NCBI GenBank assembly: GCA_016192145.1
Contig: JACPUT010000006.1
Location: 558,001 to 622,000 of the forward strand
Length of the DNA: 64,000 nt
Direction of reading: 5' to 3'
Source: Acidobacteriota bacterium
GTDB taxonomy: Bacteria; Acidobacteriota; Holophagae; Holophagales; Holophagaceae
Part shown: one piece after another, positions 1,072 to 52,048 of the stretch
Layout: each line of letters begins with the position of its first letter
How positions within the stretch are numbered: the first letter of the stretch is position 1
Made by a program: the position numbers and the translations under genes
Notes under the pieces: model-generated
What the model was told of the DNA's origin: nothing
What the model saw: only the letters and a program-made list of their open reading frames with translations
Databases searched by the model: none

Positions 1072-1152
1072 GATCACCCCCAAGGCACCAAGGACACCAA
1101 GAACTGAAAGAGATGGCTTTTCTTGATGGTCTTGGTGCCTTGGTGGTTCATC
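1072..1152. repeat. Intergenic inverted repeat with 9-bp internal period (CACCAAGGA type)
   Basis: The left arm (1072-1102) contains the unit CACCAAGGA/CACCAAGAA repeated with a 9-base step. The right arm (1121-1152) is its imperfect reverse complement, about 26 of 32 positions by eye. The loop is about 18 bases. It lies between plsX and fabD, which run in the same direction, and has no T-run, so it does not look like an ordinary terminator. Its architecture matches the repeats at 18247, 41171 and 50450 although the core sequence differs. Confidence 0.8.
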
Positions 1153-1171: not shown

Positions 1172-2110
1172 ATGAGCAAAGTCGCGTGGCTCTTCCCCGG
1201 TCAGGGTTCGCAGGCGGTGGGCATGGGCATGGCCCTCGCCGCCGCGGAGCCCGCCGCCAGCGCGGTGCTGCAGGATGCGGACATGGCCCTGGGCTTTCCC
1301 CTCTCCAAGCTCATGGCCGAGGGGCCCGAGGATCAGCTGAAGCTCACGGAGCACACCCAGCCCGCCATCCTCACGCACAGCACCATGGTGGTGCGGGCCT
1401 ACGCCCACAAGCTGCCCAAGGCCGATTTCGTGGCGGGCCACTCCCTGGGTGAGTACAGCGCCCTCGTCGCGGCGGGGGCCCTCTCCTTCTCCGATGCCGT
1501 GCGCACCGTGCGCGAGCGCGGCCGGGCCATGCAAGTGGCCGTGCCCGTGGGCGTGGGCGCCATGGCGGCCCTGCTGGGCATGAGCAAGGAGGATGTGGAA
1601 GCCGCCTGCGCCGAGGGTTCGGCCTTCACGGACAAGATCGTCGTTCCCGCCAACTTCAACGGCCCTGGCCAGATCGTCATCGCCGGCCACCTGGAGGCCG
1701 TGCAGGCCGCCATCGAGGCCGCCAAGACCCGGGGCGGGCGCAAGGCCATGCTGCTGCCCGTGAGCGCCCCCTTCCACAGTCCCCTGATGGAAGCCGCCAA
1801 GACACACATGGAGCCCCTACTCAGGGAGCTGACCTTCAAGGCCCCCTTCGCCCCCCTCGTGAACAACGTGGACGCGGCGGTGGTCAGCGATCCCGAGCAG
1901 ATCCGCGATGGCCTCGTGCGCCAGATCCCCGGCGCCGTGCGCTGGGAAGCGATCCTGGATCAGCTCTTCGAACAAGGGGTCACCACTTTTCTGGAACTGG
2001 GCCCCGGCAAGGTGCTCGCGGGCCTCGTGAAGCGCCAGGCCAAGGAACGCGGCCTCGAAGTGTCCGCGATGAGCTTCGCCGGTCCCGACGATCTCGCCCA
2101 ATTGGGCTGA
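1172..2110 (+). CDS. fabD: Malonyl-CoA:ACP transacylase FabD
   Basis: FabD moves the malonyl group from CoA to acyl carrier protein, supplying the extender unit for type II fatty acid synthesis in the cytoplasm. The 312-residue product shows the N-terminal LFPGQGSQ motif, the nucleophile elbow GHSLGEYSAL (Ser near residue 92) and the active-site His in the APFHSPLM segment near residue 200. GAGGTGA stands before the ATG. The stop codon shares a base with the next start (TGATG), so translation is probably coupled to the downstream gene. In many bacteria fabG follows fabD directly; here it is about 8 kb away. Confidence 0.96.
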   Translation: MSKVAWLFPGQGSQAVGMGMALAAAEPAASAVLQDADMALGFPLSKLMAEGPEDQLKLTEHTQPAILTHSTMVVRAYAHKLPKADFVAGHSLGEYSALVAAGALSFSDAVRTVRERGRAMQVAVPVGVGAMAALLGMSKEDVEAACAEGSAFTDKIVVPANFNGPGQIVIAGHLEAVQAAIEAAKTRGGRKAMLLPVSAPFHSPLMEAAKTHMEPLLRELTFKAPFAPLVNNVDAAVVSDPEQIRDGLVRQIPGAVRWEAILDQLFEQGVTTFLELGPGKVLAGLVKRQAKERGLEVSAMSFAGPDDLAQLG

Positions 2111-18216: not shown

Positions 18217-18246
18217 GGATTCAGACTAACTCAGGGGCGAGTTGGG

Positions 18247-18323
18247 ACAGGATGGACAGGATGAACAGGATATAAAGCCATGAAGGTCCCGTTTTTCATC
18301 CTGTCCATCCTGTCCATCCTGTT
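18247..18323. repeat. Intergenic inverted repeat with 9-bp internal period (ACAGGATGG type)
   Basis: The left arm (18247-18270) is three copies of ACAGGATGG/ACAGGATGA/ACAGGA. The right arm (18296-18323) is its reverse complement with one mismatch in 24 positions. The loop is 25 bases. It occupies the divergent spacer between xseA and the RidA gene, so it is unlikely to be a terminator. Same design as the repeats at 1072, 41171 and 50450. Confidence 0.85.
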
Positions 18324-18352
18324 AAGACACCCTTCGAATCCCGTGAGGCCCC

Positions 18353-39083: not shown

Positions 39084-41162
39084 ATGCGCCTTCGCCTGCC
39101 CGCCCTTGCCCTTCTCCTGGCCACCTCCGCCTTCGCCCGCGTGGACGAGGGGATGTGGACCTACGACAACCTTCCGACCAAGAAGATGAAGGAGAAGTAC
39201 GGCTTCGAGCCCAGCCAGGCGTGGCTGGACCACCTCCGCCTCTCCGTGGTGCGCTTCCCTGGCGGCACGGGCTCCTTCGTGAGCAAGGATGGCCTCGTCC
39301 TCACCAACCATCACGTGGGCCGCGGCTGGATCCAGCGCGTGTCCGGCCCCGGCGAGAAGAACTACCTGGTGAACGGCTTCGTGGCCGCCAACCACGAAGG
39401 CGAACTCAAGGTGCCTGGCCTCGAGCTGTACACGCTGATGACCATGGAGAACGTCACCGCGAAGGTGAACGGCGCCGTGAAGCAGGGCGCCTCCGACAAG
39501 GAGGCCCTGGACGCCCGTCAAAAGGCCCTCACCACGCTGGTGGATGAGGCCGGCAAGAAGAGCGGCCTGGATTGCCAGCCCGTGACCCTCTACCAGGGCG
39601 GCGAGTACTGGATTTACGGCTACAAGAAGCACACGGACGTGCGCCTCGTCATGGCCCCCGAGCAGCAGGTGGCCTTCTTCGGCGGCGATCACGACAACTT
39701 TACCTACCCCCGCCACGACGTGGACTTCTCCCTCTTCCGCGTCTACGAGAATGGCAAGCCCTACGTGGCACCCCACCACCTCCAGTGGACGAAGACGGGC
39801 CTCAAGAACGGCGACCTCACCTTCGTGAGCGGCCACCCCGGCAACACCTCCCGCCTCTTCACGCAGGCCCAGATGAACTTCATGGCCGAGAGCGTGCTGC
39901 CGGTGCGCATCAAGGGCCTCGAGGAGCAGGTGGCCGTGCTGAAGGCCTACGGCGCGAAGAGCGAAGCCAACATGCTGAAGGTGAACACCCAGGTCTTCGG
40001 CATCGAGAACACCCTGAAGGCCATCAAGGGCCACCTGAAGGGCCTGCGGGACAAGGAGCAGATGGCCATCGTGAAGGGCAAGGAAGATGCCCTGAAGGCC
40101 GCCGTGGCCAAGGACCCCAAGCTCGCCAAGGAAGCCGGCCAGTCCTGGGCCAAGATCGAGGGCGCCATGAAGGTGGCCAAGGCCCACGTGAACGAGCAGC
40201 TCTACCTCAACACCCGGGGCAGCCAGTTGCTGGGCAACGCCCTCACCCTCGTGCGCCTCTCCGCGGAGCTGCCCAAGCCCGCCGGCAAGCGCCTGCCTGA
40301 ATTCCAGTCCCCCGTGCAGGTGGAGGGCCTCAAGAAGCGCCTCGTTGCCGCCTCCCCCGTTCCCTTCGACAAGGAATTGGAAACCCTCACCCTGGCCTTC
40401 GGCCTCAAGGAGGCCAAGGATCACCTGGGCGCCGCCCACCCCTTCGTGAAGGCCGCCCTGGCCGGCAAATCCCCCGAGGAGGCCGCCAAGGCCCTGGTGG
40501 AGGGGAGCAAGCTCTCCGATCCCGCCGAGCGCAAGGCCCTGCTTGAAGGCGGCGCCAAGGCCGTGGCCGAGAGCACCGACCCGATGGTGAAGCTGGCCCG
40601 CGTCCTGGATCCCTTGGGCCGGAATTTCCGCGAGCTGCAGGACAAGCAGGTCACCGCCGTGGTGAACGAGCACCAGAACCGCATCGCCCGGGCCCGCTTC
40701 GCCGCCTATGGCAAGGACTCCTACCCCGACGCCACCTTCACCCTGCGCCTCACCTACGGCCCCGTGTCCACCTATCCCGCCAACGGCACCATGGCCCAGC
40801 CCTTCACCACCATCGCCGGCCTTTACGATCGCGCCTGGGGCTGGGGCCCCGAGGCCGAAAACGGCTGGTACGCCCTGCCCAAGCGCTGGATGGACAAGCA
40901 GCCCGGCCTGACCATGAGCACCCCCCTGGGCTTCGCCCACGCCGTGGACATCATCGGTGGCAACTCCGGCTCCTCCGTGGTGGATCGCAACGGCGAGCTC
41001 GTCGGTCTCATCTACGACGGCAACATCGAGAGCCTGCCCGGCAACTACTACTACGACGGCAAGGTGAACCGGGGCGTCTCCCTGGATGCCCGCGCCATCC
41101 TCGAAGTGCTCGACAAGGTCTTCGACGCCAAGCACCTGGCCGACGAACTCCGCGGCAACTAA
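39084..41162 (+). CDS. S46 family dipeptidyl-peptidase (DPP7/DPP11-like), copy 1
   Basis: S46 enzymes remove dipeptides from oligopeptide N-termini in the periplasm. The 692-residue product has a signal peptide (residues 1-18), RVDEGMWTYDNLP at the mature N-terminus, the catalytic His in TNHHVGRGWI near 84, the catalytic Asp in PRHDVDFSLFRVYEN near 210 and the Ser in IIGGNSGSSV near 630. Length matches DPP7/DPP11. Whether it prefers hydrophobic (DPP7) or acidic (DPP11) residues cannot be decided by eye. A close homologue follows directly downstream. Confidence 0.93.
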   Translation: MRLRLPALALLLATSAFARVDEGMWTYDNLPTKKMKEKYGFEPSQAWLDHLRLSVVRFPGGTGSFVSKDGLVLTNHHVGRGWIQRVSGPGEKNYLVNGFVAANHEGELKVPGLELYTLMTMENVTAKVNGAVKQGASDKEALDARQKALTTLVDEAGKKSGLDCQPVTLYQGGEYWIYGYKKHTDVRLVMAPEQQVAFFGGDHDNFTYPRHDVDFSLFRVYENGKPYVAPHHLQWTKTGLKNGDLTFVSGHPGNTSRLFTQAQMNFMAESVLPVRIKGLEEQVAVLKAYGAKSEANMLKVNTQVFGIENTLKAIKGHLKGLRDKEQMAIVKGKEDALKAAVAKDPKLAKEAGQSWAKIEGAMKVAKAHVNEQLYLNTRGSQLLGNALTLVRLSAELPKPAGKRLPEFQSPVQVEGLKKRLVAASPVPFDKELETLTLAFGLKEAKDHLGAAHPFVKAALAGKSPEEAAKALVEGSKLSDPAERKALLEGGAKAVAESTDPMVKLARVLDPLGRNFRELQDKQVTAVVNEHQNRIARARFAAYGKDSYPDATFTLRLTYGPVSTYPANGTMAQPFTTIAGLYDRAWGWGPEAENGWYALPKRWMDKQPGLTMSTPLGFAHAVDIIGGNSGSSVVDRNGELVGLIYDGNIESLPGNYYYDGKVNRGVSLDARAILEVLDKVFDAKHLADELRGN

Positions 41163-41170
41163 AGCCTCTT

Positions 41171-41236
41171 TGAAACCGCGAATGACGCGAATGGACGCGA
41201 ATCACCTTCGCGCTCATTCGCGTCATTCGCGGTTCA
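41171..41236. repeat. Intergenic inverted repeat with ~9-bp internal period (CGCGAATGA type), copy 1
   Basis: The left arm (41171-41201) carries ACCGCGAAT-GACGCGAAT-GGACGCGAA. The right arm (41207-41236) is its reverse complement apart from a 1-base gap and two mismatches. The loop is 5 bases. It sits between the two S46 peptidase genes. It shares its core unit with the repeat at 50450. Confidence 0.85.
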
Positions 41237-41266
41237 ATGTCTTCCTTCCCTGGATCGGAGCCCCCG

Positions 41267-43321
41267 ATGATCACTTCACGCACCGCCCTCCTGGTTTCCG
41301 CGGTTTTCATGACCGCCCTGCGCGCCGACGAGGGCATGTGGACCTTCGATAACGTGCCCACGAAGCGCATCAAGGCCGCCTACGGCGTGGATGTGGATCA
41401 GGCCTTCCTGGATCGCCTGCGCCTGGCCACCGTGCGCTTTCCCGGCGCCACGGGCAGCTTCGTCAGCGCGGAAGGGCTCGTGCTCACGAACCACCATGTG
41501 GGCCGGGGCGCCATCCAGCAGGTGAGCGACGCGGAGCATGACTACATCCGCGATGGATTCACCGCCTCCAGCCGCAAGGAGGAGAAGAAGGTCGCAGGCC
41601 TCGTGCTCATCACCCTCGAGAAGATGCGGGACGTCACGAAGGAGGTCGGGGCCGCCGTGAAGCCCGGCATGGCCCCCGCCGTGGCCCGCAAGGCGCGCGA
41701 GGCCGCCCTGCTGGCCCTCCAGCAGGCGGAGCAGAAGGCCACGGGCCTCCAGGTGGAATCCGTGAGCCTCTACAACGGCGGCGAGACCTGGCTCTATGGC
41801 TACAAGCGGCACACGGACGTGCGCCTCGTCGCCGCCCCCGAGGCCCAGATGGCGGCCTTCGGCGGGGACCCCGACAACTTCGTCTATCCCCGGCACGACC
41901 TGGACTTCTCCCTGTTCCGCGTCTACGAGAACGACCAGCCCTACAAGCCCGCCGCCTTCCTCCCCTTCAACGCGGGTGGGGCGAAGGTGGGCGAACCTGT
42001 CTTCATCAGCGGCCATCCCGGCGCCACGGCCCGGCAGGAGACCCTGGCCCAGATGGCCTTCGCGCGGGACCACGCGATCCCCTTCAACCTGAAGAGCTGG
42101 AAGCGCCGCCATGAGGCGCTGCTCCGCTACGGAGCCACCTCCCCGGAGGCCCGGCGCACCACCCAGGATCAGGTCTACGGGTTGGAGAACAACCTCAAGC
42201 GCTGGGAAGGCTTCCTCCGCACGCTGCGGGACAGGGACAACTGGGATCGTCTCGAGAAGCAGGAGAAAGAGTTGAAGGCCGCGGTCGCCAAGCACGGCGG
42301 ACGGACCGCCGCAGCCGCCTGGGAGTCCATCGCCCAGGCCGTGGATCGCGAAAAGGGGATGATGAAGGCCCGGGCCCTGGTGGGCACCCTCGGCAGCCAG
42401 ACCCTCTCCTACGCGCTCACCCTCGTGCAGGCCCAGGCGGAGCGCGCCAAGCCTGCCGACCAGCGCCTCCCCGAGTTCTCCGAAGCGCGCCTCAAGAGCA
42501 CGGAGACCCGCATCCTGAACCCCAAGCCCATCGAGGTGGGCGTGGACAAGGCCCTCATGCTGAACGCGCTCCAGGAGGCGCTGGAGATCCTGCCCAACCA
42601 CCCCTTCACCAAGGCGGTGCTCAAGGGTCGCACCCCGGAGCAGGTGGTGGCCGCGGCCTTCGGCAACACGAAGGTGCTCGATGTCGCCGAACGCAAGCGC
42701 CTGTGGGAGCGCGGCGTGAGCGAGGCCACGGACGAGATGCTGAACCTGGCCCGGGCCATCGATCCCATCCTCCGCGCGCAGCGGAAGCAGTACGAGGATG
42801 AGGTGGAGAGCATCACCAAGGAGCAGGGCGGCCGCCTGGCCCAGGCCCGCTTCGAGATCTTCGGCCACGAGGCCTATCCCGATGCCACCTTCACCCTCCG
42901 CCTCTCCTACGGCAAGGTGGATGGCTTTCCCGCCAACGGCACCCTGCAGGCGCCCTTCACCACCTTCGCGGGCCTCTACGATCGCGCCTGGGGCATGGGG
43001 CCCGACGCCGAGAATGGGGCTTGGAAGCTCTCCCCCCGATGGGTGGACGCCTGGAAGAAACTGGACCTCACGACCCCCTACAACTTCGCCTACAGCGCCG
43101 ACACCATCGGGGGCAATTCCGGTTCCCCCGTGGTGAACGCCAAGGGCGAGGTGGTGGGCCTCAACTTCGACGGAAACCAGGAGAAGCTGGGAAACCGCTA
43201 CGTCTACGACGTGCGTACCATGCGCGCCGTGGCCGTGGATACGCGGGCCATCCTGGAGGCGCTGACGAAGGTGTTCGAAGCTCCGCACCTCGCCCAGGAA
43301 CTGAAGGCCGGGCGGCTCTGA
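41267..43321 (+). CDS. S46 family dipeptidyl-peptidase, copy 2
   Basis: The 684-residue product is about the same size as the preceding gene's product and follows it motif by motif: signal peptide (LLVSAVFMTALRA), ADEGMWTFDNVP, TNHHVGRGAI, PRHDLDFSLFRVYEN and IGGNSGSPVVNAKGE with the catalytic Ser. It probably arose by tandem duplication followed by divergence. I choose the ATG at 41267, preceded by CGGAG, because the signal peptide begins there; 41237 would add ten residues lying just beyond the intergenic inverted repeat. Confidence 0.92.
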   Translation: MITSRTALLVSAVFMTALRADEGMWTFDNVPTKRIKAAYGVDVDQAFLDRLRLATVRFPGATGSFVSAEGLVLTNHHVGRGAIQQVSDAEHDYIRDGFTASSRKEEKKVAGLVLITLEKMRDVTKEVGAAVKPGMAPAVARKAREAALLALQQAEQKATGLQVESVSLYNGGETWLYGYKRHTDVRLVAAPEAQMAAFGGDPDNFVYPRHDLDFSLFRVYENDQPYKPAAFLPFNAGGAKVGEPVFISGHPGATARQETLAQMAFARDHAIPFNLKSWKRRHEALLRYGATSPEARRTTQDQVYGLENNLKRWEGFLRTLRDRDNWDRLEKQEKELKAAVAKHGGRTAAAAWESIAQAVDREKGMMKARALVGTLGSQTLSYALTLVQAQAERAKPADQRLPEFSEARLKSTETRILNPKPIEVGVDKALMLNALQEALEILPNHPFTKAVLKGRTPEQVVAAAFGNTKVLDVAERKRLWERGVSEATDEMLNLARAIDPILRAQRKQYEDEVESITKEQGGRLAQARFEIFGHEAYPDATFTLRLSYGKVDGFPANGTLQAPFTTFAGLYDRAWGMGPDAENGAWKLSPRWVDAWKKLDLTTPYNFAYSADTIGGNSGSPVVNAKGEVVGLNFDGNQEKLGNRYVYDVRTMRAVAVDTRAILEALTKVFEAPHLAQELKAGRL

Positions 43322-46802: not shown

Positions 46803-49800
46803 ATGAGCACGAAGACGAGCCACTGGATCACCGACGTCATCGATCCCGAAAAACGTTCCTGGGAGGACTTCTACCGGAACCGCTGGCAGCACGACAAAGT
46901 CGTCCGCAGCACCCACGGCGTGAACTGCACCGGCAGTTGCAGCTGGAACATCTACGTCAAGGAAGGCATCGTCACCTGGGAGTTCCAGGCCGTCGATTAC
47001 CCCGAGCTGGAAGCGGGCATCCCGCCCTACGAGCCCCGCGGCTGCCAGCGCGGCATCTCCTTCAGCTGGTACCTCTACAGCCCCATCCGCGTGAAGTACC
47101 CCATGGTGCGCGGCGCCCTGCTCGACCTCTGGGAAGAGGCCAAGTCCAAGTCCACGGATCCCGTGGAAGCCTGGGGCTGGCTGCAGGCCGATCCCGAGCG
47201 CCGGGCCCGCTACCAGCGCGCCCGCGGCAAGGGCGGCTTCCGCCGCACCAGCTGGGACAAGGCCCTGGAGCTGGTGGCCGCTTCCAACATCCACACGGTG
47301 AAGGCCCACGGCCCCGACCGCATCATCGGCTTCAGCCCCATCCCCGCCATGTCCATGCTCAGCTACGCGGCGGGCAGCCGTTACCTGCAGCTCCTGGGCG
47401 GCGTGAACCTCAGCTTCTACGACTGGTACTGCGATCTGCCGCCCTCCAGCCCCGAGATGTGGGGCGAGCAGACGGACGTGAACGAGAGCGCCGACTGGTA
47501 CAACGCCAAGTACCTGGCCGTCATGGGCGCCAACCTCAACATGACCCGCACGCCCGATTGCCACTTCGCGGCAGAAGCGCGCCACAACGGCACGAAGATG
47601 GTGGTGTTCAGCCCCGACTTCAACCAGGTCGCCAAGTACGCGGATGAGTGGATGGCCCTGCACCAGGGCCAGGACGGCGCCTTCTGGATGGCCGTGAACC
47701 ACGTGATCCTCACCGAGGCCCACCACCAGAAGCAGGTGCCCTACTTCATGGACTACATGAAGAAGTACACCGACGCCCCCTTCCTCGTGGAGCTCACGCC
47801 CATCGAGGGCGGCTACCGCCCCGGCCAGCTCCTCCGCGCGGGAACGATCGACCGCTACAAGGATGAAGAGCACGGCGAGTGGAAGTTCCTCATGTGGGAC
47901 GAGACCACCCAGACCCCCAAGATGCCCAAGGGCAGCATGGGCCACCGCTGGGGCAAGGAGCAGGGCGTCTGGAACCTCCTCCTGGAGGACAAGGACGGCT
48001 CCGCCATCGCGCCCAAGCTCACCTTCCTGGGGGACGGTGCCGTGCAGGTGCAGTTCGACGACTTCGCGGAAGACGCGACGCTCATGCGCGGCGTGCCCGT
48101 GAAGAAGCTGAAGCTGTCCGACGGCACGGAGACGATCGTCACCACCGCCTACGACCTGCTCATGGCCCAGTTTGGCGTGAATCGCGGCCTGGAAGGCGCG
48201 TACCCCGCCTCCTACGACGTGGAGAACGCCCCCTACACGCCCGCCTGGCAGGAGAAGAAGACCGGCCTCAGCCGCAAGGATTGCATCCGCTTCGCCCGCG
48301 AGTGGGCCCGCACCGCCGAGCTCACCGAAGGCAAGTGCATGGTGATCATCGGCGCAGGCATCAACCACTGGTACCACAACAACCTGATCTACCGCGCCGC
48401 CCAGCAGGCCCTCGTCTTCACGGGCTGCGTCGGCAAGAACGGCGGCGGCTTGGCTCACTACGTGGGCCAGGAAAAACTGGCCATGGTCGGTTCCTGGAGC
48501 GCCATCGCGCTCGCCAAGGACTGGATGCCCGCCCAGCGCCTCATGAACGGCCCCAGCTTCCACTACGTCCACAGCGACCAGTGGCGCTACGAGAAGGAAT
48601 TCAGCCAGTACCACCCGACCCCGGATGGAAGCCCCCTCACCCAGGGCCATACCATGAACATGCAGACCCTCGCTGTCCGCAATGGCTGGCTTCCCTTCTA
48701 CCCCCAGTTCGACACGAACCCCGTGGAGTTCGTGAAGGAGGCCAAGCGCAAGGGCGCCAAGGATGAGCAGGGCGTGGTGGATTTCACCGTGAAGTCCCTC
48801 AAGGACCGCACCCTCAATTTCTCCGTGGATGATCCCGACGCCGAGGTGAACTGGCCTCGCATCTGGTTCATCTGGCGCGGCAATGCCATTGGCACCAGCG
48901 CCAAGGGGCATGAGTTCTTCCTCAAGCACTACCTGGGCACGCACACCAACGCCATCGCCGAGGAAGTGGCCGAGGGCACGCTGAAGGACGTGGTGTGGCG
49001 TCCTGCCGTCGAGGGCAAGTACGACCTCGTGGTGGACCTCAACTTCCGCATGGATACCTCCGCCCTCTACAGCGACGTGGTGCTCCCCACCGCCTCCTGG
49101 TACGAGAAGTGCGATCTCAACACCACGGACATGCACGGCTTCATCAATCCGCTGTCCGCCGCCATTCCGCCCGTGTGGGAATCCAAGAGCGACTGGGACA
49201 TCTTCAAGGCCGTGGCCCTGAAGGTCTCCGAGCTCTCCAAGACCCACCTGCCCAACCCCATCGAGGATCTGGTCTCCAGTCCCATCTCCCATGACAGCCC
49301 CGGTGAAATCAGCCAGCGCCACATCCGGGATTGGCGGGCCGGGGAGTGCGAGGCCATTCCGGGCAAGACCATGCCGGGCTTCAAGGTGGTCACCCGCGAC
49401 TACACCAAGATCCATGAGCGCTACTGCGCCTTCGGCCCAGATGCCCGCAAGGGCCTCGGCGCCCACGGCGTGAAGTACGAAGTGGCCGACGTCTACGACA
49501 AGTACGCCCAGGAGCACAGCTCCAAGATGGTGGATGGCGTCCGCTGCCCCAGCCTGGAGGAGGCCGAAGAGGCCGCCGACGTGCTGCTGCACTTCGCCCC
49601 CGAAGCCAACGGCGAGCTCGCCTACCGCGCTTACGAGTACATGGAAGGGCGCACGGGGGTGAAGCTCACCCAGCTGGCCGAGAAGAATCGCGGCACCCTG
49701 CAGACCTACAAGACCCTGCAGACCCAGCCCCGGCGCGTCATCAACAGCCCCATCTGGTCCGGCATCGTGGACGAGAAGCGGCCCTACAGCCCCTTCACTT

Positions 49801-50420
49801 ACAACGTGGAGCACATGGTGCCCTGGCGCACGCTCACGGGCCGCCAGCACCTCTACCTGGATCACGATGGCTACCTGGCCTTCGGCGAGCACCTGCCCAC
49901 CTACAAGCCCACGCCGCCCTCCATGGTGCTGGGTGATCTCAAGATCAGCCAGGAGCAGGGCCCCACGCTGCGCCTGAACTACCTGACCCCCCACGGGAAG
50001 TGGCACATCCACTCCACCTACGGAGATACCGAGCGCATGCTCACGCTCTCCCGCGGCGCCGAGCCCGTCTGGCTCAGTGAGGAGGATGCCGCCTCCATCG
50101 GCATCGCCGACAACGACTGGGTGGAAGTGCACAACGACAACGGCGCCGTGGTCACCCGCGCCAACGTCAGCGCCCGCATCCCCAAGGGCGCCTGCATCAT
50201 CTACCACGCCACGGAGCGCACCTACTCCGTGCCCAAGTCCGAGACCCGCGGCTACCGTCGCGCGGGCATGAACAACAGCCTCACGCGCACCCGCCTGAAG
50301 CCCAACCTCATGGTGGGTGGCTACGGCCAGTTCTCATACCACTTCAACTACTGGGGCCCCACGGGCGTGAACCGCGAGACCACGGTGTATGTCCGCAAGC
50401 TCGACCGGCTGGTCTGGTAG
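46803..50420 (+). CDS. narG: Respiratory nitrate reductase alpha subunit NarG
   Basis: Catalytic subunit that reduces nitrate to nitrite at a Mo-bis-MGD centre. The 1205-residue product closely follows E. coli NarG (1247 residues) through the N-terminal half. The FS0 cluster ligands are H38, C42, C46 and C81 (spacing H-x3-C-x3-C-x34-C), and the molybdenum-ligand Asp is D211 in the YCDLPP segment. There is no twin-arginine signal, so the active site faces the cytoplasm. AAGGAG precedes the ATG. A hairpin repeat separates it from narH. Confidence 0.97.
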
Positions 50421-50449: not shown

Positions 50450-50532
50450 TAACCGCGAATGCACGCGAATGTTCGCGAATGAGACCGCGGCAGTGCTTTT
50501 CCATTCGCGTTCATGCGCGTCATTCGCGGTTA
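50450..50532. repeat. Intergenic inverted repeat with ~9-bp internal period (CGCGAATGA type), copy 2
   Basis: The left arm (50450-50481) carries AACCGCGAAT-GCACGCGAAT-GTTCGCGAATG. The right arm (50502-50532) is its imperfect reverse complement (CATTCGCGTTCATGCGCGTCA and so on). The loop is about 20 bases. It lies inside the nar operon between narG and narH, and could form an mRNA hairpin. It shares its unit with the repeat at 41171. Confidence 0.85.
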
Positions 50533-50557
50533 CCCGCTTTTTGGTAGGGGGGTTCTG

Positions 50558-52047
<1,490 letters not shown>

Positions 52048-52048
<1 letters not shown>

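Follow-up and report, generated by a model that had tools for sequence, protein, structure and literature searches.

The GxxExxY proteins (TIGR04256 / PF13366, PDDEXK_3) form an abundant family that is named by its motif only. Mentions of the family in open-access full text address neither its flanks nor its function. In the 2009 genome paper of Geobacter metallireducens, the part on multicopy sequences describes class 2 sites as three tandem 8-9-nt repeats with the consensus TCTCCGTS[Y], which occur in pairs, one on each strand, at varying distances and are presented there as putative sites of IHF/HU or a global regulator (PMC2700814). REPINs, which together with their RAYT form the REPtron, are short inverted doublets that occur as dispersed, non-autonomous extragenic hairpins (PMC3116915, PMC3733652).

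Here we analysed 64,000 nucleotides of an Acidobacteriota genome (the window, in the following the whole of this stretch), in which a hairpin of tandem heptamers occupies the narG-narH spacer. On balance, this hairpin is best read as a short, gene-less and non-autonomous member of an element family of GxxExxY nucleases, with arms that would be the recognition words of the nuclease. The gene-bearing form, proposed jointly with this reading and with the same measured confidence, consists of a GxxExxY gene between inverted arms of three or four tandem heptamers each. The heptamer hairpins have the look of components of a mobile or self-spreading DNA element of a kind not yet described. Context would thereby be given to two puzzles, namely the unexplained multicopy inverted repeats of tandem words and the GxxExxY family itself.

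Elements in the window

The sequence-only reading had placed an inverted repeat of nine-base period inside the nar operon at 50450-50532, with complementary arms and a second occurrence of the unit near 41171. The inverted repeat was confirmed, and the second occurrence was found with nearly perfect words (Table 1). A repeated unit is present, but its spacing is 9 or 10 bp and not strictly 9, and the arms match in their words but not in their inner spacers. Two further hairpins of like architecture were identified with a word-free detector, so that the window holds four elements: one of CACCAAG words, one of ACAGGAT words, and two CGCGAAT copies.

Table 1. Coordinates of the elements and neighbouring features in the window
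Feature	Position	Strand	Description
CGCGAAT hairpin, narG-narH spacer	50451..50531	.	AAC-(CGCGAAT x3)-loop-(ATTCGCG x3)-GTT; loop of 22 nt
narG-narH element, left arm	50454..50480	+	perfect CGCGAAT at 50454, 50464, 50474; spacers GCA, GTT
narG-narH element, right arm	50503..50528	-	CGCGAAT, CGCGCAT (middle, mutated), CGCGAAT on minus strand; plus-strand reading ATTCGCG 50503, ATGCGCG 50513 (mutated), ATTCGCG 50522, then GTT
TGGTAGGGG, 9-bp direct repeat around narG-narH element	50409..50417 (about, left copy); near 50541-50549 (right copy)	.	possible target duplication
narG (name presumed from sequence knowledge), nitrate reductase alpha subunit	46803..50420	+	end 30 bp before element
narH	50558..52048	+	start codon 26 bp past element
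Second CGCGAAT element	41174..41234	.	five perfect words; flanked by two tandem S46-type peptidase genes
ACAGGAT-word element	18241..18326	.	like architecture (3+3); word-free detector
CACCAAG-word element	1073..1148	.	like architecture; word-free detector

Folding of the narG-narH element was predicted at -47.5 kcal/mol as RNA (z -6.2 vs shuffled) and -31.6 as DNA (z -6.7), while the copy at 41174 reached -47.0 as RNA (z -10.5 vs shuffled). TTTTT occurs a few bases 3' of the narG-narH stem. Comparison of the element with Rfam 15 returned chance-level matches only, the best with 24.7 bits at a gathering score of 100.

Copies across the genome and among taxa

Scanning of the 3.8 Mb genome with the 17-mer suggested by the sequence-only reading yielded 82 matches at up to one mismatch, and none for the reversed pattern. 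Two CGCGAAT words 1-5 nt apart matched 156 times, with 0 matches of the reversed control. These word clusters correspond to about 48 elements, almost all of them intergenic. The earlier view of a dispersed element was therefore borne out, as the copies are spread over the genome and are not confined to the nar locus. Neighbouring genes were co-directional at 36 of the 47 elements placed between genes, and the element edge was found no more than 35 bp past a stop codon in about 37 of 43 (counted from the tabulated elements). At one locus (L045, 2768-2891), the hemL frame lacks its stop and runs into an element arm, which gives it the new C-terminus GTANVANVRE.

The usual form of the CGCGAAT copies is AAC-CGCGAAT-GA-CGCGAAT-NNN-CGCGAAT, followed by a loop and the reverse complement. 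Copies of another form end in GGAT...ATCC and have four words in each arm. Statistics on the anatomy were drawn from 19 copies in which all six words are perfect and stand in the usual register. Of their 38 arms, 33 have GA as the outer spacer, while the inner 3-nt spacers agreed between arms at 0.386 of bases vs 0.41 when shuffled. The loops ranged from 11 to 53 nt and all 19 differed from each other. With spacers free and loops differing, it is the words and their register that are conserved, not the pairing. Mixed CGCGAAG/CGCGAAT arms were seen at two loci (L020, L032).

An exact triple of CGCGAAT was present in at least 117 stretches. Among the matches listed are Verrucomicrobia, Planctomycetes, Chloroflexi, Spirochaetia, Acidobacteria, Gemmatimonadetes, Proteobacteria, a Methanothrix bin and others, many being metagenome bins, so that single taxon assignments may be wrong. 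Occurrence of CGCGAAT word pairs in Holophagaceae was patchy, with 152 in the genome studied here, 51, 41, and 16 in G003, G011, and G030, respectively, 2 in G001 of the same genus (76% complete), and none in many other relatives. In the genome studied here, copies of the CGCGAAT class have multiplied greatly.

GxxExxY genes between the arms

In two long copies (L009 and L034) the arms are about 400 bp apart and an open reading frame of the GxxExxY family lies between them. The two frames scored 139 and 136 bits against TIGR04256 (cut-off 35; E 8e-41 and 7e-40) and 132 and 133 bits over the full profile of PF13366 (PDDEXK_3; cut-off 22). The family was found in 35 of 60 genomes of relatives, and the genome studied here has five GxxExxY genes, two of them inside CGCGAAT arms. 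At L009, candidate starts of the gene lie inside the arm (1818-1845, minus strand), where the word followed by G makes ATG. Because of these possible start codons, the arm may encode the N-terminus of the enclosed protein.

Inverted tandem heptamers of any sequence were searched for in the flanks of 80 GxxExxY genes, drawn from Holophagaceae relatives and from cross-phylum contigs found by the word alone, and at 491 control positions. Three or more words per side were present at 41 of the 80 loci and at none of the controls. A further 11 loci and 4 controls scored 5, which brings inverted arms with a score of 5 or more to 52 of 80 loci vs 4 of 491 controls. Since some of the 80 loci are near-copies (G006) or were found via the word itself, the one-per-genome subset is the fairer figure, with 19 of 30 genes scoring 5 or more. 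No arms were detected by the automatic test at 26 of the 80 loci, and some GxxExxY genes sit between two complete hairpins, not within one. Arms and GxxExxY gene form one unit in the majority of loci.

Six plasmid records from other phyla, retrieved by protein alone, were inspected by eye. The Sphingomonas plasmid carries the order fabD-GxxExxY-fabG with the GxxExxY gene enclosed by CGCGAAG arms, the Bernardetia plasmid a gene with CACAGAG arms, and the Gemmatirosa plasmid a CGCGGAT hairpin beside the gene. On the Fusobacteria plasmid pZRK30-1 (L410), the gene is found between direct, not inverted, copies of AGATTTAATCCGTGTACCTAT. Single queries of viral contigs and phage records returned no GxxExxY relatives.

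Gene and arms also occur in other combinations. CGCGAAT pairs are present in G036, where the GxxExxY gene is absent, and several word classes of the genome studied here are without a cognate gene among its five. G022 holds several near-identical open frames of 230 aa with a GxxExxY domain and no detectable arms (L211-L213). About 50 GxxExxY-related matches were counted in G006 (L198-L210), many of them with an identical internal deletion and CGCGGAG arms. They lie inside a longer repeated segment and are apparently carried by another mobile element, for which reason the about 30 identical deleted copies were dropped as proof of transposition.

The GxxExxY protein has a length of about 130 aa. 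A model predicted from six family members (pLDDT 83) gave its best fold match with Cas4 SSO0001 (Z 9.9, 108 aligned residues, 18% identity), followed by other PD-(D/E)XK enzymes and Holliday junction resolvases, although matches with Z below 8 may reflect only a common arrangement. The conserved residues include the G, E, and Y of the motif and the nuclease-motif aspartate; D70 is invariant. ExK is present in 4 of 6 aligned members, with DxK in one and no K in another. The model thus has the restriction-endonuclease-like fold with D...(E/D)xK, and the Cas4-like fold together with the conserved aspartate makes the protein a likely PD-(D/E)XK nuclease. A sequence search of the PDB found no solved structure for the family.

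Word classes and the protein tree

Each element carries one word, which differs among elements. The words found include CGCGAAT, CGCAGAT, CACGGAT, CACCGAT, CGCGAAA, CACCAAG, CACGAAG, CACAGAG, AGCGGAG, ACAGGAT, CGGTGAG and others, mostly of the form CRCNRAK and with a period of 8 to 11 (8 in the CACCAAG class). The word-free detector identified 28 elements of about ten word classes in 464 kb of the genome studied here (control 1), and 43 elements in 1.6 Mb of G034, which belongs to another genus (control 3).

When 48 GxxExxY proteins were labelled by arm word, partly by eye, their tree required 7 changes of word class, while shuffled labels required 21.8 (0 of 200 as low). One clade with a support of 100/98 contained 19 of the 21 CRCNRAG-type proteins, and inside it CRCCAAG, AGCGGAG, and CRCRGAG formed subclades of their own, though the genomes are of different genera. 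Identical words persist even where the proteins of the lineages differ by nearly one change per site. Each GxxExxY subfamily goes with its own word. Arms and gene are one inherited unit, because they sit together and the word follows the protein tree. This proximity also means that joint inheritance without recognition could explain the co-variation. We infer that the GxxExxY protein reads the word, a reading strengthened by the survival of identical words through protein divergence.

Co-variation of word and protein also bears on an alternative that we consider unlikely, in which a nucleoid or regulatory protein of the host binds the arms and the GxxExxY genes are passengers with a tendency to land between them. 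Words conserved in fixed register without conserved pairing would suit such sites, as would sites that are common to different genera, and the paired tandem-repeat sites of Geobacter metallireducens are read as IHF/HU sites in its genome paper (PMC2700814). A host protein would, however, have to serve about ten word classes together in one genome and a word that tracks the GxxExxY subfamily across genera and phyla, and CGCGAAT copies are few or absent in relatives from the same genus or family.

Orthologous sites

Comparison of orthologous narG-narH spacers, as proposed in the sequence-only reading, found the element missing in six narGH relatives (G030, G011, G005, G027, G003, and G057). In a seventh, G036, the spacer holds a hairpin of CGCGAAA-type words. 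The element is thus not conserved at the same site in all relatives. The sequence-only reading also suggested that the hairpin could stabilise the mRNA or separate narG from narHJI. A strong hairpin is indeed predicted, but its absence from most relatives, together with inner spacers that show no constraint on pairing, argues against a nar function that is conserved.

The same observations weigh on an interpretation as terminators or mRNA 3'-end stabilisers at gene ends, in which the repeated word is a by-product. Edges mostly within 35 bp past a stop codon and strong predicted folding agree with it, and an ordinary terminator-like hairpin stands at one shared site in some relatives. The narG-narH copy, however, is inside an operon where six relatives have no hairpin, the inner spacers are unpaired and the loops unrelated. 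As a functional hairpin requires neither sixfold use of one heptamer nor linkage to a nuclease gene, this interpretation appears improbable.

Among the sites of the genome studied here, 16 could be aligned with 1.6 Mb of G034, represented by 17 flank pairs as the arms of L034 were queried separately. A strict automatic rule, which replaced a laxer 6-mer gap test and had its threshold chosen after the lax result was seen, called a word hairpin at 8 of 17 flank pairs vs 0 of 70 control gaps (p 4e-7). All 8 carry another word. By eye, a different-word hairpin was recognized at 12 of the 16 sites, and one re-used site is a complete GxxExxY element with CGCAGAT arms. The site of the CACCAAG element of the window has a CACGGAT-type hairpin in G034. 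The S46-type peptidase array of the window (39084-43321) has a hairpin in a spacer, and a tandem S46-type peptidase array in G034 (L320, 900001-920000) likewise has CGCAGAT hairpins in several spacers.

Between hemB and hemL, a hairpin or half-hairpin was present in about a dozen of 27 genomes, with the words CGCGAAT, CGCAGAT, CACAGAG, ACAGGAT, CGCGAAG, and an 8-bp GAGTCRA-like unit. At this site CGCAGAT/CGCCGAT words are present in G001, in which a GxxExxY gene of the CGCAGAT type also occurs. Hairpins of an 8-bp unit (GAGTCAA / AGTCGAAA) occur here at L375, L381, and L382 (G011, G033, and G025), and this unit is perhaps a further word class.

The orthologous pair at L013 has the same mutated word, a common spacer and a partly common loop, while position 7 of the word differs throughout. 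This partial likeness suggests that the word was changed in place. Loop homology between the genome studied here and G034 was not significant over nine orthologous pairs (p 0.11), of which only L013 was clearly alike and the others are too diverged to decide. Nested arms were observed as CGCCAAG inside CGCGAAA loops in G034 and as a CGCGGAT hairpin within a CGCGAAT hairpin (L118). Such nested and mixed arms are compatible with existing elements being inserted into or rewritten.

Possible spread of the elements

The sequence-only reading had proposed a mobile hairpin. This idea survives in changed form, with a linked GxxExxY gene whose subfamily predicts the word, but the copies are without a common loop and orthologous sites in the other genus hold other words. 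As the copies have no loop in common, the hairpin does not spread as a whole, and loops that differ wholly argue against ordinary copy-and-paste. No insertion or excision events were seen among the compared sites. Target-site duplications were sought over 88 elements, whose flank repeats equalled those of shuffled pairs; the repeat around the narG-narH element was the best among them.

Dispersed intergenic two-arm hairpins with a linked single-gene form would equally arise from a REPIN-like system, with a RAYT (Y1 HUH transposase) as its driver, or from MITEs of a conventional IS; REPINs are alike in this (PMC3116915). The elements are inverted doublets that form extragenic hairpins, which is a likeness of form and not of membership. 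The linked gene encodes a PD-(D/E)XK protein, however, and no Y1_Tnp (PF01797) gene was detected in this genome, with controls positive in 5 of 14 genomes. The listed copies end in AAC...GTT or GGAT...ATCC and not in GTAG/CGTC. A MITE was rejected by the differing loops and by target duplications without enrichment. Altogether, an origin of this kind seems very improbable.

Least credible are attC-like sites moved by an integron integrase, which the AAC...GTT ends reminiscent of attC core boxes, the variable loops and two integrases of this genome above the family cut-off bring to mind, but the sites are single and dispersed with no cassette arrays seen at them, the boxes RYYYAAC...GTTRRRY occurred in 0 of 38 elements on either strand, and G011 and G030 (41 and 16 word pairs) have no integron integrase over the cut-off. 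The two integron integrases of the genome studied here are located at C6:186626-187567 (L412) and C5:73499-74440 (L411), well above the family cut-off.

Discussion

Linkage of arms to GxxExxY genes and co-variation of word and protein were observed directly, and binding, cleavage and movement are inferred from these sequence patterns. In the mechanism that we propose, a resident GxxExxY nuclease would bind words of its own class, in the DNA duplex or in a cruciform, and would cut or process the hairpin sites that bear them. Repair or insertion at the cut site might then write the nuclease's own word into intergenic sites. Preferred targets would be spacers already occupied by a hairpin of a different class, as in the nested cases, so that arms would be renewed and loops left behind. 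Gene-less hairpins such as the nar-operon copy could be maintained or renewed in trans, and an effect on nar mRNA, if any, would be a side effect of insertion.

Such word spreading would explain why words stay constant although loops and spacers vary freely, why the word matches the protein and why sites are re-used, but not how arms get written without the loop. Active rewriting of arms by GxxExxY nucleases is put forward tentatively. Equally speculative is a heptamer code in which each subfamily recognises its own tandem word and, through cuts at intergenic hairpins of other classes into which its word is then written, converts or replaces their arms, which would leave ever-changing words at a few sites in related genomes.

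If this code is true, one small nuclease family would provide many natural matched protein-DNA pairs, and a new route for the spread of DNA in bacterial chromosomes would be given. The elements would then represent a class of self-spreading DNA that is widespread across several phyla and is driven by a Cas4-like nuclease acting alone. Strong hairpins inside operons, for example between narG and narH, may be remnants of elements and not regulatory signals. In the open-access literature, no paper was found with the repeat sequence strings, and none that links such repeats to GxxExxY in full text. The novelty of the GxxExxY-linked heptamer elements is judged on this literature.

Among known systems, the genes inside the heptamer arms belong to the GxxExxY family, with scores well above its cut-offs. 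The PD-(D/E)XK fold is common to the GxxExxY model and to Cas4 and RecB-type nucleases, and function is not implied by fold; GxxExxY proteins differ from Cas4 in being smaller, and no CRISPR context was seen. REPIN/RAYT systems resemble the heptamer elements in having a single linked gene whose type matches the type of repeat. They differ in their Y1 HUH transposase and in REPs that are short GTAG/CGTC-tagged palindromes and not tandem heptamers, and the heptamer elements differ in turn by loops unrelated among copies. The closest published counterpart, the class 2 sites of Geobacter metallireducens, is described for one genome, with no link to a gene and no comparison of words across genomes. 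As printed, the consensus agrees in architecture with the heptamer elements and is a CACGGAG word on the other strand. Judged by the printed consensus, the class 2 sites would be heptamer-word elements seen without their gene.
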